The notes under the pieces: generated by a model
The model's database searches: none
Seen by the model: the letters and a program-made list of their open reading frames with translations, nothing else
Told to the model about the DNA's origin: nothing
Origin: Anaerolineae bacterium
GTDB lineage: Bacteria > Chloroflexota > Anaerolineae > Aggregatilineales > Phototrophicaceae
Assembly: GCA_022843385.1 (NCBI GenBank)
Contig: JALHNT010000006.1
Coordinates: forward strand, 34,105-98,104
Direction: 5' to 3'
DNA: 64,000 bases
Shown here: one piece after another, positions 47,728 to 59,907 of the stretch
Position numbering within the stretch: the stretch's first letter is position 1
Layout of the letters: each line of letters begins with the position of its first letter
Position numbers and translations under genes: made by a program

Positions 47728-49143
47728 CTAGCTGAACGCCTTGATCTGGTCGAGCAGCTTGCCCTGGTCAACTTCGGGATGTTTATCCAGTTCGGCCTTG
47801 AAGATATGCATATACTCGACGATCTGCGGCTTGGTATAGGCTTCAAAGCGCAGCGTGATCGCTGGCTGGGTGTTGCTGGCGCGCACCATACCCCAACCGC
47901 CCTCAAACGACGCCCTAACGCCGTCAAGGGTGATGACCTGGTAGCGGCTCGACAGGATGTCAGTGATCTCCTGAATGATCTGGAACTTGACCGCATCCGG
48001 CGCGGAGAGGATGATTTCCGGCGTGGCGAACAGCTTGGGAATCTCGTCGAAAATCTGGCTCACGGTTTTGTCGGTCTTGGAGATGATCTCCAGCGTCTTG
48101 AGCGCGATCAGCGGCGCGTCGTCAAAGCCGTAATAATTCTCGCCAGTGAACAGATGACCACTGACCTCGCCCCCCAGCGGCGACCCGATTTCGTGCATCT
48201 TCTTCTTCATCAGGCTGTGACCGGTCTTCCACATCACCGGCACGCCGCCGTACTTCTTGATCTCATCCGGCAGCGCCTGCGACGCCTTGACATCGAACAC
48301 AATCGAGGCTCCCGGCATACGGCTCAACAGATCGCGCGCCAGCAGCGCCAGCAGTCGATCCGCCGCGATATGATGCCCGTGATCGTCGATGAAGCCGCAG
48401 CGATCCGAGTCGCCGTCGAAGCCCAGCCCCAGGTCCGCTCCAACTTCGACCACTTTGGCTTCCAGGTCTTTGGTCGTCTCCGGGTCCTCCGGGTTGGGCA
48501 GATGATTGGGATAGGTGCCATCTGATTCGAGGTACAGCCCCACCACTTCGACCCCCAGTTTCTTCAGCACCGCCGGCACATACGACCCGCTCAGACCGTT
48601 GCCCGCGTCCAGCACCACCTTCAGCGGGCGGTGAATCGTCACTTTGGAACCGATGGTGTCCATGTGTTTGTGGATCATATCCGGGTCGTGGCTGACCGTC
48701 CCCTGACCGCTGGCAAAGGCATCAGTCTGAATGATCTTGAGCAAATCCTGAATCTGCTGGTCAGCCAGCGCCAGCGCCCCATACGCCATCTTGATACCGT
48801 TATAGCGGGTATCCAAATGGCTGCCAGTAATCATCACACCCGCGCCGCGCTCGCCATAGCTGGCCGAGGCGAAGTACACCGTCGGCGTCAGCACCGCGCC
48901 AATATCGGTCACATTCATGCCAGCAGCGGTCAAGCCATCGATCAGCCCTTGCTTCAGCCCCGGCGACGACTCGCGGTTATCACAGCCGACGAACACGCGC
49001 TCGGTCTGGAACTGCTGTGGCAGATAGGTGCCGAGCGCCTGCCCCACCAGACGGGTGAAAGCCGGAGTCAATTGCGCGTCTGCGCCGGAAACCGTGCCGC
49101 GAATATCATACTTGCGAAAGATGGTGGTATTGACCGGTGGCAT
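47728..49143 (-). CDS. Phosphomannomutase/phosphoglucomutase
   Basis: 471 residues with four alpha-D-phosphohexomutase domains. The start is FRKYDIRGTVSG. The active-site Ser is at about 108 in TGSHLDTRYNGIK; the usual form is TASHNP..YNG, so the two residues after SH are changed. The metal loop is GFDGDSDRCG, the sugar loop is GGEVSGHL, and the phosphate-binding loop is RASNTQPAITLRFE. It interconverts hexose 1- and 6-phosphates for sugar-nucleotide synthesis, which suits the nearby glycosyltransferases. AAGGAGA precedes the ATG. Confidence 0.9.
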   Translation of the reverse strand: MPPVNTTIFRKYDIRGTVSGADAQLTPAFTRLVGQALGTYLPQQFQTERVFVGCDNRESSPGLKQGLIDGLTAAGMNVTDIGAVLTPTVYFASASYGERGAGVMITGSHLDTRYNGIKMAYGALALADQQIQDLLKIIQTDAFASGQGTVSHDPDMIHKHMDTIGSKVTIHRPLKVVLDAGNGLSGSYVPAVLKKLGVEVVGLYLESDGTYPNHLPNPEDPETTKDLEAKVVEVGADLGLGFDGDSDRCGFIDDHGHHIAADRLLALLARDLLSRMPGASIVFDVKASQALPDEIKKYGGVPVMWKTGHSLMKKKMHEIGSPLGGEVSGHLFTGENYYGFDDAPLIALKTLEIISKTDKTVSQIFDEIPKLFATPEIILSAPDAVKFQIIQEITDILSSRYQVITLDGVRASFEGGWGMVRASNTQPAITLRFEAYTKPQIVEYMHIFKAELDKHPEVDQGKLLDQIKAFS

Positions 49144-49429: not shown

Positions 49430-49993
49430 TCACCGCTCATTGTCCTTGTTATTCATGACCGACGCCTGGGCGGTCTGACGATAGAGTTCGCGGCACAGAT
49501 CGCGCAGCGTCGCGGCCTGAGCCTGCGTCGTCCGCCCTGGCCGGACAACCTCACCCACAAAACGTTCGGTGGCAACCTCGGATGGCGTGTAGGTGGCGAC
49601 GAACTGCCACTGCGCCGGCGCTAAAGTGTTCAATAGTTGCAGCAACCGTTCCAGCATCACCTGCGTTTCGAGGTCGAGCCATTCCTGATCGCCATAATTG
49701 ACCGGACGCTTGATGAGCGCCTCGCGGCTGGCGAAGATCAGATGTCTGGCATCGATGTCGCGCCAGAGATCGCGTAGCGCGGCCATCAGACTCGGCTTAT
49801 CGGCTATTGTTTCCTGATTATCGCCCCACAGCGCCGTCGCCCCCCAACTGATCGCGGCACCTGCCGATGCGCGAATGACCAGATGCGCTTCCATCCCATA
49901 TTGCTTGTGGATGTAACCGATCGTGGCCTGCCAGGCCAGCAGCCCATTGGCCGGGCGCTGCGGCAGCGGACGCGAGACATGCGTTTCGGGCAT
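49430..49993 (-). CDS. Hypothetical protein, last gene of the ClpB-TIR-hydrolase operon
   Basis: 187 residues, no recognised domain. The N-terminal part (RPANGLLAWQATIGYIHKQY, then AHLVIRASAGAAISWGATAL) looks alpha/beta. The middle is helical with charged pairs (ALRDLWRDIDARHLIFASRE). No membrane segment or Cys pair. Its ATG is two bases after the hydrolase stop, so translation is coupled. Composition matches the host. Possible function unknown. Confidence 0.65.
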   Translation of the reverse strand: MPETHVSRPLPQRPANGLLAWQATIGYIHKQYGMEAHLVIRASAGAAISWGATALWGDNQETIADKPSLMAALRDLWRDIDARHLIFASREALIKRPVNYGDQEWLDLETQVMLERLLQLLNTLAPAQWQFVATYTPSEVATERFVGEVVRPGRTTQAQAATLRDLCRELYRQTAQASVMNNKDNER

Positions 49994-49995
49994 TG

Positions 49996-51168
49996 TCAGC
50001 CTTCCCGGTAAAAACTCCAGGCCAGAAATCGATCGAGATGATACTGGATGAGCTGCGCCCCCAGCCCAAACGACAGCGCATCAAAGCCATGACGCGCCCA
50101 GGGAACCCGCAGGAACACATAGCGAGTGTTGGTCGCCAGCAGTCGCTTGAGCATCAGGTCGCCATGCACATACGGCACCAGCGTGTCCTGCATCGCCTCG
50201 ACCAGCAGCAGCGGCGGCAGATCATCCCGCACCCAATCCAGCGGGTTGGCGTCGGTGTAAGCATCGGCTTTCTCCGGGTAGCGCCCACCCACCAAATCAA
50301 TGATAGCCGAGTCTGGTTCCAGATCAGGCCACTTCATATTCAGTGGTCCGTAGATCGAGACCACCGCCTGCACCTGAGTATCCGCCTCGGCCCGCATCGC
50401 CGCCATCAGCGCCAGATGCCCACCGGCTGACCGCCCCAGCAGCGCCACCCGGTTCGGGTCAATCCGGTACTGGTCGGCATGAGCCTTCACCCAACGGATA
50501 GCCGACTGAACATCATGCAACTGCGCCGGCCATTTCACCCGATTCGAGAGCCGGTACTGCACATCGAACACTTTGTAGCCCTGCTGCGCCAGCAGACGGT
50601 TGCTGGCCTCGAACCAGCCCCCCCGATCACCCTCGCGCCAGCCGCCGGGATGCAGCACGATGACCGCCGCATACCGATCCCCGACTAAGGGCGGCAGTGA
50701 TGGCTCATACACATCCAGCAGCAGCGGGTGACCATCCGGACATGCATACTCGAGGTCACGCCAGATGCCGACACGGGTCGAGCGTTCGCGCGCCCCCAGC
50801 GCATTCGGCAGCGACCACACCGTATCCAACAGACGCAGCCGCACGGCGGAGGGAATGCGGCTCTCGTAATCGCGTCCCAGACCCATCCGCATAGCCGACG
50901 CCATGTCCTCAGCCGCTGCCCGATGATCGATGAATGGCTTGAGCGAGAGCAGCGTCCCGGCCCCGCCCAGCAGCAGCGGCAGCCATAACCAGGGCGATCC
51001 CAGAATCGCCAGCAGCACCGCCAGCAACCCCAACGACGCTGGCAGCCACGACAGCTCATTCAGGCCAATTTGCAGTTGGCGCAGCCGACCCTCCCGATCC
51101 GGTCGATGGATCAGAATACCGCCTGCCAGCGCCATGCCACCCAGAACCAGCGCCAGAAGCCGTCGCAT
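49996..51168 (-). CDS. Membrane-anchored alpha/beta hydrolase (esterase/lipase, BD-FAE-like)
   Basis: 390 residues. Three hydrophobic segments lie in the first 80 residues (MRRLLALVLGGMALAGGI; WLPASLGLLAVLLAIL; PLLLGGAGTLLSL). The hydrolase domain follows (about 135-390) with oxyanion motif VLHPGGWREGD, nucleophile GRSAGGH, Asp in VEAMQDTLVP and His in ARHGFDAL. Substrate unknown. The start codon shares its A with the TIR gene stop (TAATG). The upstream ribosome-binding site therefore lies inside the TIR coding region. Confidence 0.85.
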   Translation of the reverse strand: MRRLLALVLGGMALAGGILIHRPDREGRLRQLQIGLNELSWLPASLGLLAVLLAILGSPWLWLPLLLGGAGTLLSLKPFIDHRAAAEDMASAMRMGLGRDYESRIPSAVRLRLLDTVWSLPNALGARERSTRVGIWRDLEYACPDGHPLLLDVYEPSLPPLVGDRYAAVIVLHPGGWREGDRGGWFEASNRLLAQQGYKVFDVQYRLSNRVKWPAQLHDVQSAIRWVKAHADQYRIDPNRVALLGRSAGGHLALMAAMRAEADTQVQAVVSIYGPLNMKWPDLEPDSAIIDLVGGRYPEKADAYTDANPLDWVRDDLPPLLLVEAMQDTLVPYVHGDLMLKRLLATNTRYVFLRVPWARHGFDALSFGLGAQLIQYHLDRFLAWSFYREG

Positions 51169-51980
51169 TATTGTGAGAATTCCTCTTTACGAGAAAAATG
51201 GCCCAATGCTTTGATCAATTCATTTTCTATCTGAGATAAACTATCGTCAAAAGGAATGTAATGCAAACTCTGCATGTAATACGGAAGTTTTGATCCGTCT
51301 CTACTTACAAGTGGAATCACTTTCTTTCTCTCAGATATAGCATATTCCACTTCTAGATTAACCTCTTCGGACTTTGCAGCATCAGAAGTCCAAATGACAA
51401 CAACACAGTCAGACTGATCAAGTGCGATCTGAATTTGCTGACGCCAACTTTCACCTGGCTTCATAACTCTGTCAAAAAACACTAAGAAGCCGTTGTCTAT
51501 TAGCATCCTGTACAGTTGATTAGCCAAGAAATGTTGTTTGTGAGAATATGCAATGAAGATAAACGGACTATGACTCGCACGAGTCTGTGGGCCAGGGAGA
51601 TAGTCCAAAATATGCTTTGTCCAATCATCGCCGTCGAATGCGGGGATATCAAGGACAGGCTTATCCAGTAGCAAGTCGGGGAGGGACATAGTCTGAGTCA
51701 ATACGCAAACTATGGGTTTCTTCAGATCCAAAGCAACTAACATCTCATATTGTGCAACAAGTGACTTAGAGAAGTAACTTGAGACAAATACAACACACAA
51801 GTCTACTGAAGCAATTGTGTGTATGCGATGTTGCTTCCAATCGATATCGACCGGAACACCATGCCCATACCAAATCTGCATATATTCACTATAGAAGGCC
51901 TCCGTCATTATTTGAAGGTAGTACGGGTAACTATCATCAGTCTCGGAAGAGATGGGATATACCTTAGAGATATGGGACAT
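51168..51980 (-). CDS. Tandem TIR-domain protein
   Basis: 270 residues. The C-terminal half (about 135-255) is a clear TIR domain: FIFIAYSHKQHFLANQLYRM, LVFFDRVMKPGESWRQQI, DCVVVIWTSDAAKSEEVNLE, VEYAI. The Glu in the S..V..E..YA pattern matches the catalytic Glu of NAD-cleaving TIRs. The N-terminal half is a shortened, diverged TIR-like unit (DLCVVFVSSYFSKSLVAQYE, then KKPIVCVL), also with Glu. The gene is markedly AT-richer than its neighbours and lies exactly between the ClpB-like gene (6 bases) and the hydrolase (overlap). A role in NAD-based defence or signalling is inferred, not shown. Confidence 0.8.
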   Translation of the reverse strand: MSHISKVYPISSETDDSYPYYLQIMTEAFYSEYMQIWYGHGVPVDIDWKQHRIHTIASVDLCVVFVSSYFSKSLVAQYEMLVALDLKKPIVCVLTQTMSLPDLLLDKPVLDIPAFDGDDWTKHILDYLPGPQTRASHSPFIFIAYSHKQHFLANQLYRMLIDNGFLVFFDRVMKPGESWRQQIQIALDQSDCVVVIWTSDAAKSEEVNLEVEYAISERKKVIPLVSRDGSKLPYYMQSLHYIPFDDSLSQIENELIKALGHFSRKEEFSQ

Positions 51981-51986
51981 AATGTG

Positions 51987-54227
51987 TTACTGCCCCACGC
52001 TGATCTCTTTGCCGTCCACCAGCGCGGCGAAGGTCAGGCCGCTGTCGGTCGCATCCACCCGCACCAGCGTCCCGGCGGGCGGGTTGGCCTTCAGCAGATA
52101 ATCGGCCAGCGGTTCGCGCACAAAGCGGCGGATGATGCGTCGCAGCGGACGCGCGCCATACTGCGGTTCGTCATTCTGCGCCAGCATCCAGGCCACCGAC
52201 GCATCGGTGAAATCCAGTTCCAGGCCGCGCTCGGAGGCCATCTTGGTTTCCTTTTTCAAGAGCAGCAGCAGGATGTCGTGCAGGCTGTCTGCCGACAGGG
52301 CATTGAACATGATGACTTCATCAAGACGGTTGAGGAATTCCGGACGGAACCAGGTGCGCACCTCTTCCATCGCCTCTTCGCGGATTTCATCGGTCACCAC
52401 CGGCACCGCCAGATATTCCGAGCCGAGGTTGCTGGTGAGGATGACAACCGTCTCGCTGAACTGCGTCTGATTGCCCCGCCCATCGGTCAGGCGGCCTTCC
52501 TCGATCACCTGCAACAGAATGTCCATGATGCGCGGGTGGGCTTTTTCCACCTCATCGAACAGCACGATGATGTAGGGCTGCTGCCGCACCCGTTCGGTCA
52601 ACTGACCGCCCGCCTCGCTATCCACATAACCGCTGGGCGACCCGATCAGCCGGTTCAGGCTGGACTCGTCTTTGAACTCGCTCATATCCAGCGGCAGCAT
52701 GGCGTCTTCGCTGCCGAACATGAACTCGGCCAGCGCCCGCGCCAGTTCGGTTTTACCGACGCCGGTCGGCCCCAGGAAGAGGAATGCCCCAATCGGGCGC
52801 TTGGCATCCTTCAGCCCCACCCGCGCCGTCTTGATGGCACGGCTGACCGACAGCACCGCTTCGTCCTGCCCGATCAGGCGCTCCTTGAGATGCTCGACCA
52901 TGCTGGCGTAGCGCAGCCGTTCATCCTCACCCAGCTTGTTCACCGGAATGCCGGTCATCTGGCTGGCTGTGAGCGTCACATCCTCAGCATCCAGGCTGGT
53001 ATCGCCGGTGCGCTGACTGGTGAAGGGAAGTTGACTCTGGTGGCTCATGGCGACCATCGCCGCCGACCGGTGGATGAGCTGCTCGGCGCTGCGCGGCAGG
53101 GGCGTGCTGCTCAGATAGCGCTTTGCCAGCCGAGCGGAGAGTGTCAGCGCTTCATCAACAATGTGCAGCTTGTAGTCGGCTTCGAGATGCGGCTTGAGGA
53201 TTTTCAGAATCTCGATGGTCTCGTCCATTGACGGCTCCGGCACCCGGATCACCTGGCTGTTCTCAGCGATCGCGCTGACCACCGCCAGCCGTTCCTTATA
53301 ATCCTGTTCGCTGGAGGTACCGATGATGACCGGATCATCCGCCAGGAAGGCTTTCTGGATCAGCGGCGTGGCCTTGCCAAACTCAGCCTTGATCGGCCCG
53401 CCGAAGAAGCGATGCAGATGCGGGATGAAGAGGATGCCCCCGGCGGCCTTGCTCATGCCGGCGCGCACCGCCTTCTGGTCGCTGTCGAGCAGTGCCGTCT
53501 CGTCGATCTGCACCAGATTCGACAGGCCGAACGGCCCCTTGCCTTCGGACATCAGCAGCCCCAGGCTGTAGGCCAGCGTCCGCTTGCCCACGCCATCCGG
53601 CCCGATCAGGATGATATGCCGGTTGACCGCCTGCGACAGGATGTTCACCATATCGCGCAGCAGATCATTGCGGAAATACACCGCTCGCAGCTTGCCGGCT
53701 TTGGCCTGCGCCACCACATCCTGCGTCGTCCCATCCGGGCGCAGCCGCACCTGGCTGTTATCGGTCAGCAGATCGCTGATCGCCTTGGGGGTGATGCCGT
53801 GCTGCCGCAGTAACCCGCTGGTGGACATCGACGGCTCGGCCATGACCGAGAGGAGATGGTCGGTATCAACCCGCACCTCATCCTGCGAATTCGCCAGACT
53901 GAGCGAGTCATCAATCAGGATGATAGCCTGCTTGGAAAGCGGAACCTGCCGGTTGCCCTTCGCCACAAAGTCCAGGTTGCCGTTCTGATCGGCGCGACCC
54001 TCCACCGCCAGATGCACCTGACGATCCAGCTTCTCCATATCGACGCCGCGGCTGCTCCTGAACACTTCCAGCAGTCGCGCCCCGGCGGTATCCTTGCGCC
54101 GCAGCAGCGCCAACAGGATCACTTCCGGGATGATGGTCGGTTTGCGATACTGATCTTTCAGCGCCACCGCGTCATTCAACACGGCGTCAAGGTCCTTCGA
54201 AAGCAAATCGGGGTTCAACGTTCCCAT
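51987..54227 (-). CDS. ClpB/ClpC-like AAA+ ATPase with inactive first ATPase domain
   Basis: 746 residues from MGTLNPD (54227). There is a double Clp N-domain (about 5-160). The first AAA+ domain has Walker A GPDGVGKRT (Ser/Thr after Lys replaced by Arg) and Walker B ILFIPHLHRF, where the Asp-Glu pair is lost; it probably cannot hydrolyse ATP. There is no long ClpB middle domain. The second AAA+ domain has intact GPTGVGKTELARALA (about 486), IIVLFDEVEKAHP and the RPEFLNRLDEVI arginine region. It could remodel protein complexes with one working ring. It is the first gene of the operon that contains the TIR protein. AGGAC precedes the ATG. Confidence 0.88.
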   Translation of the reverse strand: MGTLNPDLLSKDLDAVLNDAVALKDQYRKPTIIPEVILLALLRRKDTAGARLLEVFRSSRGVDMEKLDRQVHLAVEGRADQNGNLDFVAKGNRQVPLSKQAIILIDDSLSLANSQDEVRVDTDHLLSVMAEPSMSTSGLLRQHGITPKAISDLLTDNSQVRLRPDGTTQDVVAQAKAGKLRAVYFRNDLLRDMVNILSQAVNRHIILIGPDGVGKRTLAYSLGLLMSEGKGPFGLSNLVQIDETALLDSDQKAVRAGMSKAAGGILFIPHLHRFFGGPIKAEFGKATPLIQKAFLADDPVIIGTSSEQDYKERLAVVSAIAENSQVIRVPEPSMDETIEILKILKPHLEADYKLHIVDEALTLSARLAKRYLSSTPLPRSAEQLIHRSAAMVAMSHQSQLPFTSQRTGDTSLDAEDVTLTASQMTGIPVNKLGEDERLRYASMVEHLKERLIGQDEAVLSVSRAIKTARVGLKDAKRPIGAFLFLGPTGVGKTELARALAEFMFGSEDAMLPLDMSEFKDESSLNRLIGSPSGYVDSEAGGQLTERVRQQPYIIVLFDEVEKAHPRIMDILLQVIEEGRLTDGRGNQTQFSETVVILTSNLGSEYLAVPVVTDEIREEAMEEVRTWFRPEFLNRLDEVIMFNALSADSLHDILLLLLKKETKMASERGLELDFTDASVAWMLAQNDEPQYGARPLRRIIRRFVREPLADYLLKANPPAGTLVRVDATDSGLTFAALVDGKEISVGQ

Positions 54228-54329
54228 TGAATTTGTCCTGTGGTCGTGCAGACGAACGCTACTAAAGTTAACCTGAAAGCGCACCAGAAACAAGCGTGAG
54301 TCGGGTTCTGGCGCGGGTCAAGCCTGTGT

Positions 54330-54335
54330 TATAGT
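54330..54335 (+). promoter_or_regulatory. Possible -10 (TATAGT) before the esterase-CapA gene
   Basis: TATAGT lies 32 bases before the ATG in the divergent spacer with the ClpB-like gene. No convincing -35 is found at the right distance. Confidence 0.35.
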
Positions 54336-54366
54336 AAGCTGAATTGAAACAGCCTGGGTCAGAAAT

Positions 54367-56535
54367 ATGACGATCTCACATCACCGAGTCATCCCACTCT
54401 ATACGTGTATTGTACTGTTTTTGTTCGCTGGCGCTGCCCAGTCCGCCATCTGTGACGCCACCCAGGGCAGCATCACGCGCGGCCAGTATCGCAGCCTCAT
54501 CGCCGAGACCAACATGTATTTCTCGGTCTATACCCCACCCTGCTATGACCAGGAGACGCGCACCTACCCGGCGCTGTACCTGATGCACGGCTCCAACGAG
54601 GATGACGGACAGTGGGGGCGGCTGGGGATTCAGGAGCATCTGGATCGCGGGATCACCGACGGAACGCTGCCGCCAATGATCGTGGTCATGCCGTTCGGCG
54701 AGTGGATCGCCAATCAGAATCAATTTGATCGCGTTTCCTGGGAGAATGTCTTTCTCGAAGAACTGCTGCCGCTGGTCGAAAGCAGCTACCGCATCGACCC
54801 GCGCCGTGAAGCCCGCGCCATCGGCGGCATCTCGCGCGGCGGCTTCTGGGCCTTCGAGCTGGCCTTCCGCCATCCCGACCGGTTCAGCGCCGTCGGTGGA
54901 CACAGCGCCTTCTTCGCTGAAGGCAACGCCCCGCCCGATTACGACCCGCTGAAGCTGGCGCTCAACGCGCCCGATCTCGATACGCTGGCGATATGGCTGG
55001 ATCGGGGCGCACAGGATTACGCCGCCCCCGGCCTCGATCTGATGCGCGAGCGACTGACGACGCGCGGCATCCCCCATCAATACACCATCTTTCCCGAAGG
55101 GCAGCACGCCAACAGCTACTGGCGGCAGCATGTGCTGACTTATCTCCAGTTCTACGCCGCCAGTTGGGCCGATCAGGTGCCCGCGCCGACGCTCACGCCC
55201 GTGCCGCTGATCTTCGCCACCAACACCCCCTTCCTGACCGCCACCCCGATCCCCGCCGCCAGCTATGATCTGTTCGTGCCAGCCGTCGCCTTCCCCAGCC
55301 TTCAGACCGGCATCATGACCCAGACGCTCATGGACATCCGTACCGGACAGGCGGTGCCGAAGCTGGCGCTATCTGAATCGGCTGCCGCCCGCTTGAACGC
55401 CTATGGCATGTGGACGAATGGCATCACCACCGTCGCCGATGATGCCCTCCTCAATACCCTGTGGCGAGACCGCTCGCTCTTCACCCTACTGCCCTTCGAC
55501 CAGTTGACTCCGCGCTACCGGATGCTGACCGTCGATGGCACGCTGCCAATTGACCTCGATCTGGCGACCTATCCGCTGGCCTTCAGTTCAGCCACGCCGA
55601 ATTATCAACCCGATCAGTTGACGCGCATCATGGCCTCCGGCGTGACCGCCCTGACGCGGGTGACACGCGAGACAATAAACCGCAACGGCGTCACCTGGGC
55701 AGGCGAAGCGCTGCGCCCGTATGTCGAGCAGGTCGATTTCTTCCACACCAGCAACGAAGTCTCGTTCTCGCCCCTCTGTCCCCAGGCCGATGGCGAACAA
55801 CTCGGCGCGTTCTGCTCCAAAGAAGCTCACTTCAGCCTGTTGACCGATCTGGGGCTGGACATCGTGGAACTCAGCGGCAACCACAACCTCGACTTCGGCA
55901 GCGAGAATTATCTCACGACGCTGGAGTGGTATCGTGAGCGCAACATCCTCACCGTTGGCGGCGGCGAAACGCTGAAACAGGCGCGGCAGCCCCTGACGCT
56001 GGAACATCACGGCAACCGCATCATCTGGCTCAGTTGCAACGCCGTCGGCCCCTACTACGCCCTGGCCGAAGCCGATACGCCCGGTGCCGCCGATTGTGAC
56101 TGGGGCTGGCTGCGAACCGCGCTGCCGGAACTGGATGCGGCCTCCGATGTCCTGATCGTCAGTGTGCAGTATCTCGAAGTCGAGGACTACCAACCGCTGC
56201 CGCAGCAGGTGAGCGACTTTCGCGGCCTGGCCGACCTGGGCGCGGATGTCGTCCTCGGCACCCAGGCACATAAACCCCAGACCTATGAGTTCTACACCGG
56301 CCGGGGCGGCAAACCGACCTTCATCCATTATGGACTGGGCAATCTGTTCTTCGACCAACCCTTCTGGGGCAACATGCGCTTCTTCATGGATCAGTTGTTG
56401 ATTTATCAGGGGCGGCTGCTGACGGTGGATGTGTTCACCGGCATCATCGACGACAACGCCCGTCCCCGCCCGATGACCGCCGAGGAGCAGCTCAACTTCC
56501 TCGCCTTCATGTTCAACACCCAGGGGCGCTTCTGA
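54367..56535 (+). CDS. Secreted esterase fused to a CapA-like metallophosphatase domain
   Basis: 722 residues. A signal peptide ends near AQSAIC. Residues about 35-275 are an esterase-D/enterochelin-esterase-like alpha/beta hydrolase: TYPALYLMHGSNEDDG, nucleophile GGISRGGFWAFEL, then FPEGQHANSYW with the catalytic His. A Pro/Thr-rich linker follows. Residues about 430-700 are a PGA_cap (CapA) domain: GLDIVELSGNHNLDFGSENY, ADVVLGTQAHKPQTYEFYTG, FIHYGLGNLFFD. CapA proteins act in poly-gamma-glutamate or capsule processing. Joining both in one exported chain is unusual and suggests a two-step action on an envelope polymer. Confidence 0.85.
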   Translation: MTISHHRVIPLYTCIVLFLFAGAAQSAICDATQGSITRGQYRSLIAETNMYFSVYTPPCYDQETRTYPALYLMHGSNEDDGQWGRLGIQEHLDRGITDGTLPPMIVVMPFGEWIANQNQFDRVSWENVFLEELLPLVESSYRIDPRREARAIGGISRGGFWAFELAFRHPDRFSAVGGHSAFFAEGNAPPDYDPLKLALNAPDLDTLAIWLDRGAQDYAAPGLDLMRERLTTRGIPHQYTIFPEGQHANSYWRQHVLTYLQFYAASWADQVPAPTLTPVPLIFATNTPFLTATPIPAASYDLFVPAVAFPSLQTGIMTQTLMDIRTGQAVPKLALSESAAARLNAYGMWTNGITTVADDALLNTLWRDRSLFTLLPFDQLTPRYRMLTVDGTLPIDLDLATYPLAFSSATPNYQPDQLTRIMASGVTALTRVTRETINRNGVTWAGEALRPYVEQVDFFHTSNEVSFSPLCPQADGEQLGAFCSKEAHFSLLTDLGLDIVELSGNHNLDFGSENYLTTLEWYRERNILTVGGGETLKQARQPLTLEHHGNRIIWLSCNAVGPYYALAEADTPGAADCDWGWLRTALPELDAASDVLIVSVQYLEVEDYQPLPQQVSDFRGLADLGADVVLGTQAHKPQTYEFYTGRGGKPTFIHYGLGNLFFDQPFWGNMRFFMDQLLIYQGRLLTVDVFTGIIDDNARPRPMTAEEQLNFLAFMFNTQGRF

Positions 56536-57422: not shown

Positions 57423-57571
57423 CGCCGTCTGACCGTAACCCGTACCAAAAAGTTTACCAAAAGTTCACCCGTAAGCGGGCAATCGATGCTAGGCTGGTGG
57501 ATAACAGTCGTCAGATCGAAGGGGTCTGGCGCTATAATCCGTGCCATCAGACAGCGATTGAGGGGATGACC

Positions 57572-57946
57572 ATGTTCCGCCACATGATCAGGACGCCGTA
57601 TCGACTATTGGGCCTGTTGAGCATTCTGCTGCTATTCCCCTTCCACCCGGCTTTTACCCAATCGACAACCGATCAACTGGTGATTGAGTGGGAGCAAATT
57701 CTCAATAGTGATATCTCGTATGTCGATTGGAGTCCTGACAGCCAGTATTTAGCCTATCAACTCACTGGCACAATCAATACAGTGTCCATTCTTCATATTG
57801 ACACCCGTACTTCGCGTGAAATCACCCTTCCGTCACAGTCCGAGGAAATCACTTCAGTTTTCCCGGTTGGATTCGAAACGGATATCTATTCATATTATGT
57901 ATGTAAGTGCACCAAAGTGAAATGCGTCGCTACCTTTCCCAATTAG
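57572..57946 (+). CDS. Exported WD40/TolB-like beta-propeller protein, truncated
   Basis: 124 residues. A signal peptide (RTPYRLLGLLSILLLFPF, then HPAFTQS) is followed by a single propeller-blade-like unit, ISYVDWSPDSQYLAYQLTGT, INTVSILHIDTRTSREI, where full proteins have six or seven. The last 20 residues (YYVCKCTKVKCVATFPN) do not fit a blade, and AT-rich sequence follows at once. The gene therefore looks cut off by the 58-59.5 kb island. The ATG at 57572 has GAGGGG six bases upstream. It may be a pseudogene. Confidence 0.5.
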   Translation: MFRHMIRTPYRLLGLLSILLLFPFHPAFTQSTTDQLVIEWEQILNSDISYVDWSPDSQYLAYQLTGTINTVSILHIDTRTSREITLPSQSEEITSVFPVGFETDIYSYYVCKCTKVKCVATFPN

Positions 57947-58031
57947 CTGAAATCAGATCCAAAAGTACGATTTTCGTTGTCGGTAAATGTTTGAGGTTGT
58001 ATAATCAGATAAGTTGGAAAGGATAAGCTTT

Positions 58032-58589
58032 TTGTTCGACTTAGAGCAACGCCGCACTATACATGATGCAGTAATTATCGTCATTCGCAAGAGTCTTGAA
58101 TTGGCTAATGCGATCCCGCCTAGCGATCTGAAGGATCAAATTGATATAGTAAATGTTATCACTCTGGAGTTAAGGCTTGCCATAGAGGTCGATTCTTATT
58201 CTAAATCAAGCGATGCTGACTGGCGATTTCGGATAGATCGTTTATTAGAAAACCTTTCCGAATTGCTATACATAATATCACTATATAGTAATAATGATAC
58301 AGAGATAGAAACAGGATCTACGCTACTGAGAAGTGTTGAAGCTTTACAATTCTCGATAAGAGCATACGAGGAAGCGGTAAGACTCGATAGGAACAAACGT
58401 TCCTTAAGGTATATTTTTCTCAGGCGAGATGCATTCCCAGCCTTTGCTGCACTTTTTGCAATCATGCTTTCCTTATTTGATTCATTCGGCATTGACAACT
58501 CACCCTTTTATGCATTCACTGTAGTAATGATCACTATTATGCTTGTATTATCTTTAGCTCAATCCTATGAATTTCTCAAAAGGAGATAG
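58032..58589 (+). CDS. AT-rich hypothetical membrane protein (first gene of island)
   Basis: About 185 residues from a TTG start at 58032 with AAAGGA eight bases upstream; TTG at 58014 is the only earlier option. A mainly helical, charged soluble part (RTIHDAVIIVIRKSLELANA, WRFRIDRLLENLSELLYIIS) is followed by two C-terminal membrane helices (AFAALFAIMLSLFDSF and FTVVMITIMLVLSLA). No family recognised. Base composition is far AT-richer than the chromosome around it. Five bases separate it from the next gene. Confidence 0.6.
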   Translation: MFDLEQRRTIHDAVIIVIRKSLELANAIPPSDLKDQIDIVNVITLELRLAIEVDSYSKSSDADWRFRIDRLLENLSELLYIISLYSNNDTEIETGSTLLRSVEALQFSIRAYEEAVRLDRNKRSLRYIFLRRDAFPAFAALFAIMLSLFDSFGIDNSPFYAFTVVMITIMLVLSLAQSYEFLKRR

Positions 58590-58594
58590 CAAGT

Positions 58595-59467
58595 TTGTCC
58601 CAACACAATATTGAGAACAGCTTGCCCAAGCGCATCGAACAGATGGGTTACAGCTTCAAAGTACGTATATTCAATGAAGCACTTCAGATTGTTGATGGAG
58701 ATGTAGAGAAACTCACTGATCAAATTTACGATAGCGCACTCACTAAAGTAATACAACAATACATAAATGATCATTCTCCTCAACTTATTTCACAATTAGA
58801 TGACTATAAAGTAGTACAAGATAATCAACGTAAACAAATAGACGCACTAGAGATTCAGTTGCAACTTGAAGTAACACAGTCACGTGAATTAGAAAAGCAT
58901 TTTGAGCAAGAACTAGAAACGCAACGAAGCGCTCTAAACCATACTACAGATTTACTGACAAAAGCCAATGAAAATAACGGATCGCTTAAGCGAGAACTTG
59001 TATCTGTACACAAGAGACTTAAGACCACACGAAACGCATTAATATCTGAGCGAGGAGTATCAAATAATTTAAACGCATTGCTAGAGAGAGCTTCAAACAA
59101 ACCGCAAAAAACACCCTCGCAAAGAATTTTGGGGTTAGCTTTGACATTAATTGGAGGAGGTGTGGCATTCACTTGGGCGTTACCAGTATTTGTTAACAGT
59201 TTAATTACAGGTAATAGCGATACAGCTATTCAAGCTGGTCTACTGGCTTTAGGTGGCTTCATAGCTGTATCAGCAGTTGAAAATAACTTTTTAGGATTAT
59301 TTGAAACCAAAGAGCAAGTACCTAAAACTCATCGTCTTAGACTCAATCTACTTAATACTCTACAGAATCACGAAACATCGTCTCAAACAGATTCACCAGC
59401 AGATGACGTTTCTGACTCACCTACAGCAACAGGCCACAACAGTAAGATGTCAGGTAAGCGTATGTGA
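58595..59467 (+). CDS. AT-rich coiled-coil membrane protein (second gene of island)
   Basis: 290 residues from TTG with AAAGGAG upstream. The N-terminal 55 residues are globular. A long coiled coil follows (about 65-160; QRKQIDALEIQLQLEVTQSR, RELVSVHKRLKTTRNAL), then two membrane helices (ILGLALTLIGGGVAFTWALP and AGLLALGGFIAVSA) and a polar Ser/Thr-rich tail. No domain recognised. With the gene at 58032 it forms a two-gene unit of membrane proteins, each with a cytoplasmic helical part. This is reminiscent of paired defence or signalling genes, but nothing proves it. Confidence 0.65.
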   Translation: MSQHNIENSLPKRIEQMGYSFKVRIFNEALQIVDGDVEKLTDQIYDSALTKVIQQYINDHSPQLISQLDDYKVVQDNQRKQIDALEIQLQLEVTQSRELEKHFEQELETQRSALNHTTDLLTKANENNGSLKRELVSVHKRLKTTRNALISERGVSNNLNALLERASNKPQKTPSQRILGLALTLIGGGVAFTWALPVFVNSLITGNSDTAIQAGLLALGGFIAVSAVENNFLGLFETKEQVPKTHRLRLNLLNTLQNHETSSQTDSPADDVSDSPTATGHNSKMSGKRM

Positions 59468-59694
59468 GAGCGACTGATCCTGATCGCCATCCATGTTCTC
59501 TGCGCCATAGTGATGTGACTTCCCGCCAGCGCATCACTCCTGTGGTGGTTGGTGGTGCCACGCAAACATCAATGGACAAGCGAGAAATGGTGCGAAGAAC
59601 GTACATCTGGCTGACGACTGTCGTCTATTTGGCGGTTGTGTCGCTCCGACAACGACGACACAAAACGGAGTTGCACAAAAAAGAGAGTCATGCA

Positions 59695-59721
59695 GTTGCA
59701 ACACTTGCAACTTTTGCAACA
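59695..59721 (+). repeat. 9-bp tandem repeat, three units
   Basis: GTTGCAACA, CTTGCAACT, TTTGCAACA. Confidence 0.75.
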
Positions 59722-59762
59722 CTTTCACCGGATCAGGGAAATGTCACAAAAGGCAGTTTTGC

Positions 59763-59789
59763 ATTTGACGACTTTGACGACTTTTCGCA
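59763..59789 (+). repeat. 9-bp tandem repeat, three units (different motif)
   Basis: ATTTGACGA, CTTTGACGA, CTTTTCGCA; same period as 59695 but another core. Confidence 0.7.
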
Positions 59790-59880
59790 GTAAGTCCACC
59801 GTCATCAATCATCAGAAAAAGAATGCATCATGCGTGACTCGTTTCTAATAGAGAGCAAATCTGCAAAACACAGGCTGGTG

Positions 59881-59907
59881 CAGTTGCAGCATTTGCAGAA
59901 TCTTGTG
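59881..59907 (+). repeat. 9-bp tandem repeat, two to three units
   Basis: CAGTTGCAG, CATTTGCAG, AATCTTGTG; related to the TTGCAA core at 59695. Confidence 0.65.

Follow-up and report, generated by a model that had tools for sequence, protein, structure and literature searches.

TIR effectors described so far are connected to nucleotide cyclases, Argonautes, NACHT proteins, reverse transcriptases, or SIR2 partners (PMC10952713). A second source (PMC11374754) states that the activity of most bacterial TIRs as NADases, enzymes that cleave nicotinamide adenine dinucleotide (NAD), depends on a WxxxE-type Glu motif, and a third (PMC10474274) states that the NADase function of SPARTA, which combines a TIR-APAZ protein with a short prokaryotic Argonaute, requires TIR assembly. 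Here, we describe a gene encoding a tandem-TIR protein directly behind the gene of a ClpB-like AAA+ ATPase in a 64,000-nucleotide stretch (hereafter, the window) of contig JALHNT010000006.1 from an Anaerolineae bacterium of the family Phototrophicaceae, order Aggregatilineales (assembly GCA_022843385.1; genome G000 in our set). Among the literature matches listed, no title concerned a ClpB–TIR operon.

The central observation is that related tandem-TIR genes recur in this position. A search of 154 genomes of the order, with up to 15 candidates scored per genome, returned four members of the family at E < 1e-60 (G045, G037, G466, and G000), the next match standing at 1.4e-37. Three of these four, each from a different genus (G000, G045, and G037), occupy the slot behind the ClpB-like gene, and in both the window and G037 the TIR stop codon overlaps the next start codon. 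Because the same slot holds related tandem-TIR genes in two genera besides that of the window, the ClpB–TIR link is taken to be real, and a pairing by chance is unlikely. These findings support a reading to which we assign an even chance: a small accessory tandem-TIR family has repeatedly settled behind a core ClpB-like gene whose first AAA+ module (D1) is dead, and it encodes a predicted NAD-cleaving effector that is restrained by, or read out through, the unfoldase. A functional tie between the TIR effector and the ClpB-like unfoldase is probable.

Pfam analysis of the TIR protein gave TIR_2 as the best match (residues 141–250); the only families matched were TIR-type and Nuc_deoxyrib_tr, and the chain ends with the second TIR. 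Prediction with AlphaFold from the single sequence was useless (predicted local distance difference test score, pLDDT, of 38.1); a 45-sequence alignment was used instead, and the resulting AlphaFold2 model, with a mean pLDDT of 86.7, is a confident prediction of two TIR folds within 270 amino acids (aa). Structure comparison matched both modeled domains to solved TIR domains, the N-terminal one to those of MyD88, AbTir, and SARM1, and the C-terminal one to SPARTA and SARM1 among its best matches. The first-pass annotation, made from the window's letters alone, had proposed one complete TIR domain with the catalytic-type Glu and one diverged domain, and had suggested predicting the structure of both halves; the prediction bears this out, the complete domain being C-terminal and the diverged one N-terminal.

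Glu210 is found in all 45 rows of the family alignment and aligns with E208 of AbTir. Glu206, equally invariant (45/45), stands where AbTir has Trp204, giving ExxxE in place of WxxxE. Of the features expected of a bacterial TIR NADase, the protein thus shows the TIR fold and, by alignment only, the catalytic Glu in helix C; the Trp four residues before that Glu is absent. The C-terminal TIR is predicted to be an NADase-type domain, and since ExxxE replaces WxxxE, a hydrolase releasing an ADP-ribose-type product is more likely than a maker of cyclic ADP-ribose.

How does the protein compare with described systems? It shares the TIR fold and a Glu in the aligned place with AbTir, other bacterial WxxxE TIR NADases, and SARM1, but differs from them in carrying Glu for Trp in every row (45/45) and in consisting of tandem TIRs with little else in the chain. 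Unlike SPARTA, it lacks APAZ and has an extra TIR in front, and no Argonaute gene lies next door; its neighbors encode the AAA+ protein, a hydrolase, a 187-aa protein, and a phosphoglucomutase/phosphomannomutase (PGM). With Thoeris ThsB, Retron-TIR, and the TIR effectors of Pycsar and CBASS it shares the TIR effector domain and weak profile matches, whereas the four operon genes gave no Pfam match to SIR2/SLOG, reverse transcriptase, or cyclase families. Specifically, no Thoeris SIR2/SLOG-type partner was matched by Pfam among the operon genes scanned, and Pfam and NCBIfam scans of the same genes found no reverse transcriptase of the Retron-TIR kind, fused or adjacent. The NCBIfam Thoeris ThcB4 model matched residues 141–224 of the protein with 32.2 bits, far below its cut-off of 220, and matched 44 of the 45 family rows at E ≤ 1e-5.

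A database search with the window TIR protein alone retrieved only itself and no close homologue. Among the genomes of the Phototrophicaceae, its best relatives are those of G037 and G045, each 48% identical over the C-terminal half. An alignment of these three proteins retrieved 43 proteins from the database, 42 besides the window's own, with P0003–P0042 coming from metagenome contigs. The 45-row alignment represents 44 distinct proteins (P0002 is near-identical to the G037 protein); its 26 invariant columns lie without exception in the C-terminal half, where the top residue accounts on average for 79% of each column (46% in the N-terminal half). Members are characterized by two TIR domains within approximately 270–306 aa and a C-terminal TIR signature, both present in the window protein; two shorter rows measure 208 and 249 aa. 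A scan of 84,980 species genomes recovered two loci, the G045 and G037 genes, with the G466 gene not among them. Searches of 396 genomes from the class and 400 from the phylum found only the window's gene, weak negatives given that about six candidates at most were scored per genome.

Among the family's sequences, that of the window copy has diverged furthest. Of the 68 positions conserved to at least 90% among the other members, it deviates at 26 (the next worst at 13), and its branch in the TIR tree is the longest (2.69 vs a median of 0.21), which makes its tree position unsure. This divergence, together with the missing close homologue, would suit a chance insertion of a decaying, functionless TIR gene. 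Such an insertion is nevertheless the least probable explanation we considered: the reading frame is intact, the operon junctions are neat, 42 of the 68 positions are kept (including Glu206, Glu210, Trp179, and Trp197), and relatives use the same slot. Indeed, the reuse of one slot by the same family in two other genera argues against chance insertion, which was rejected as the principal explanation.

The four genes of the operon are packed on the minus strand (54227–49430) in the order ClpB-like, TIR, alpha/beta hydrolase, and 187-aa gene (Table 1). The junctions comprise a gap of 6 bases, an overlap of 1 base between the TIR stop and the hydrolase start (TAATG), and a gap of 2 bases. This spacing agrees with that first reported; the interval originally outlined (51168..54227) leaves both the hydrolase and the 187-aa gene outside. 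The TIR gene has a guanine-plus-cytosine (GC) content of 41%, compared with 61–63% for the other three genes. Its contig is 189 kb long and carries operon genes on both sides of it; the genome is a draft with an estimated contamination of 7%. The hydrolase matches the Pfam family BD-FAE with 142 bits. Upstream of the ClpB-like gene, CTTGTT occurs in 10 of the 16 regions compared within the genus, among them that of the window, with a GGTTAA-like stretch further downstream; the former is a promoter-like element. No CIRCE heat-shock operator was found in the window, even with up to three mismatches allowed.

Table 1. Positions within the window of the operon genes, TIR domains, and flanking features.
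Feature	Positions	Strand	Evidence
ClpB-like AAA+ ATPase of 746 aa; D1 degenerate, D2 intact, without a middle domain of ClpB length	51987..54227	-	
Tandem-TIR protein, 270 aa	51168..51980	-	Pfam, alignment, AlphaFold2 model, structural matches
N-terminal TIR domain, residues 1-132, diverged, fast-evolving	51585..51980	-	Structure matches
C-terminal TIR domain, residues 138-264, conserved, SPARTA/SARM1-like	51189..51569	-	
Glu210 codon (aligned with the catalytic-type Glu, AbTir E208)	51351..51353	-	Alignment, 45/45 rows
Alpha/beta hydrolase, 390 aa, BD-FAE/Abhydrolase_3, hydrophobic N-terminus	49996..51168	-	Pfam
187-aa protein, no Pfam match	49430..49993	-	Pfam scan
Phosphoglucomutase/phosphomannomutase (PGM), downstream of the four genes	47728..49143	-	Pfam
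Intergenic region upstream of the ClpB-like gene, promoter-like element	54228..54366	-	Alignment of same-genus regions

The ClpB-like protein shares with ClpB and ClpA disaggregases and unfoldases the double AAA+ layout, a Clp_N match, and an intact second module (D2) with its pore loop, but its D1 lacks the acidic residues of Walker B, the middle domain falls short of ClpB length, and its scores lie far below the NCBIfam equivalog cut-offs (492 bits against 1232 for ClpB; 385 against 993 for ClpA). In 60 of 60 loci, Arg comes directly after the GK that the D1 Walker A retains, and none of the 60 has kept the Walker B Asp-Glu (Pro in 59 and Ala in one, with mostly His at the second position), so the dead D1 first noticed in the window extends to every locus compared. 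In D2, all 60 keep Walker A, Walker B, the Arg finger, and sensor 2 intact. Judged from sequence, the protein thus belongs to the Clp group, with a dead D1 and intact motifs in D2, and two ATPase-competent rings are not to be expected of it. Of the 154 genomes searched in the order, 138 gave a match to the gene at E ≤ 1e-180, as did 69 of 249 genomes sampled within the class; a looser search matched all 98 genomes of the family, partly through an ordinary Clp paralogue. Its presence in most of the order indicates that the TIR-free form of the operon is old. The ATPase is a core protein and by itself no defense marker.

The content of the slot was surveyed at one ClpB-like locus from each of 96 of the 98 family genomes, leaving out G020 (a fragment) and G044 (no orthologue). 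Downstream of the ClpB-like gene, 46 loci have PGM alone, 21 the 187-aa gene then PGM, 15 the hydrolase, 187-aa gene, and PGM, three the hydrolase and 187-aa gene only, two the 187-aa gene only, two TIR, 187-aa gene, and PGM, and one, the window's own, the full set of TIR, hydrolase, 187-aa gene, and PGM. None of these was seen at the remaining six: in G001, G023, and G084 the contig ends 2, 2, and 183 bases past the ClpB-like gene, which leaves the slot unreadable, and in G019, G021, and G053 more than 4.6 kb is visible with no operon partner. PGM therefore follows at 85 loci, the 187-aa gene is a partner at 44, and the hydrolase is in the slot at 19; ClpB-like and PGM form a stable pair, and the 187-aa gene and hydrolase are members in part of the family. 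A TIR gene is present at three of the 96 loci (three of the 85 with PGM in view), no TIR gene was found at 90 at E < 1e-15, and three are cut at a contig edge.

The TIR gene of G045 lies directly behind the ClpB-like gene (ClpB-TIR-unknown-PGM, the unknown being the 187-aa gene); that of G037 follows after one Uma2 gene (ClpB-Uma2-TIR-unknown-PGM), and in both the hydrolase is absent from the slot. The first-pass annotation had suggested a defense unit of all four genes; the ClpB–TIR association holds, as it recurs in two more genera, but the four-gene unit was rejected, the full set occurring at one locus in 96, TIR without the hydrolase at two, and the other three genes without TIR. Genes of other kinds also enter the slot. 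Uma2-type genes form a second family that reuses it, lying between ClpB and the unknown gene in G037 (L118:7395-7997, minus strand), G038 (L133), and G049 (L120), and, before the hydrolase, in G032; PGM is out of view in G038 and G032. Pfam confirmed Uma2 for the G037 gene. In G059, the slot holds a putative DUF421-like gene. Among the 85 loci where PGM can be seen, a scan of the ClpB–PGM interval for gaps above 330 bases with open reading frames of at least 70 aa found such newcomers at three (G037, G049, and G059).

Several observations weigh against a functional pair. A TIR gene is missing from 90 of the 96 loci, with three more cut off, which shows that the ClpB-like protein can do without it; unrelated genes enter the slot (Uma2-type in G037 and G049, the presumed DUF421-like gene in G059); the G466 member lies outside it, on the same strand as the ClpB-like gene and approximately 25 kb away; all family members lack the Trp of WxxxE; and the window copy, with its many altered positions, may be decaying or changed in function, such that it may be inactive even if the family is active. 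The G466 member ends what we take, from the starts of the sequences, to be a run of cell-shape genes, and lies beside a presumably DNA-methylase-like frame. It had been proposed initially that a chance insertion would follow if homologous operons mostly lacked the TIR gene and the protein had no NADase pocket; the first part holds, but the second does not, the TIR having an NADase-type fold with its Glu present.

The main rival is that the tandem-TIR effector is self-sufficient and the ClpB operon a well-expressed, permissive landing site whose core flanks supply homologous tracts for slot swapping between species. The mixed newcomers, the high conservation of the ClpB-like and PGM flanks, the many loci without TIR, and the one family member of four outside the slot all suit this proposal, which we hold to be a serious if less probable contender. 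Yet the lineage of the window is rich in TIRs, with 34 TIR-type matches in this one draft genome (its own gene included), many inside long open frames, and 189 matches at E ≤ 1e-8 occur in 55 of 98 family genomes; of all these TIRs, only the rare tandem family was nonetheless seen in the slot, and other newcomers are few. In G050, a TIR gene of another type (L121:3594-4718, minus strand), whose 374-aa product carries TIR_2 and SH3_3, lies one interval further on, between PGM and a methyltransferase gene.

The TIR gene is a late accessory in an old operon, as the first-pass annotation had surmised from its AT-richness. In the window's genus, 10 of 16 relatives have the hydrolase directly behind the ClpB-like gene without TIR; the distance between the two matches is 7–13 bases in eight of them and 64 and 142 bases in two, leaving no room for a TIR gene. 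A ClpB tree built by a quick method (LG+G4; 68 rows, with 29 of the 97 loci omitted and long branches flagged) places the three genomes with a TIR gene on isolated tips, which requires a minimum of three changes, and no TIR gene is present in the sisters G008 and G038. Two of the copies are AT-rich, and neither is found in the nearest sister. GC contents of TIR vs ClpB are 41.0% vs 62.0% in G000, 40.4% vs 59.7% in G037, and 56.2% vs 56.9% in G045. The match in G045, and the shared slot in three genera, would fit an ancestral TIR gene inherited vertically and lost in most lineages; this is improbable, however, as it demands 11 losses on the same tree, the AT-rich copies point to recent arrival, and the three proteins stand far apart in the TIR tree. 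The simplest reading is that a single rare family reached this slot repeatedly, in two cases recently, and probably by horizontal transfer. Carriage as phage or plasmid cargo was also considered and rejected: the G045 protein had no match among 50,697 phage and 72,556 plasmid records, and viral contigs searched with A2 held no relative.

Other features of the region were recorded in passing. On the plus strand, 54367–56535 encodes a fusion of an esterase (PF00756) with a capsule-synthesis PGA_cap domain (PF09587), which, in many relatives of the same genus, is the divergent neighbor of the ClpB-like gene. Beyond it, an AT-rich block at 57500–59900 (GC 37–46%), with open reading frames of 191 and 290 aa and no convincing Pfam match, looks like another recent insertion. 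On the far side of the operon, a ParE/RelE-like toxin gene (PF05016; 47078–47589, minus strand), with a small upstream partner without a Pfam match, occupies a patch of low GC between the gene for PGM and that for the methyltransferase, an interval that is variable in relatives.

Returning to the tandem-TIR family as a recurrent companion of the ClpB-like gene, we infer every step beyond gene layout and fold. The ClpB operon mRNA would be the template for the TIR protein, whose stop codon overlaps the start of the gene behind it. The variable N-terminal TIR may sense or assemble; cleavage of NAD(P)+ would fall to the conserved C-terminal TIR, after stacking of TIR domains. The ClpB-like unfoldase, with a single active ring, may hold TIR assemblies apart, and infection or protein stress that overloads or diverts it would then release the TIR assembly. 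A stronger form of this proposal, chaperone-gated suicide, in which the half-dead unfoldase polices assembly of the tandem-TIR NADase and NAD is drained when phage or protein damage occupies the unfoldase, seems to us rather unlikely. The pairing of a TIR protein with a ClpB-like ATPase may represent a new way to arm bacterial self-sacrifice or a stress response. That a rare TIR family keeps returning to a single slot behind a Clp ATPase with a dead D1 suggests that NAD-depleting immunity may have protein quality control as a further trigger or brake, and it provides a concrete pair for testing.

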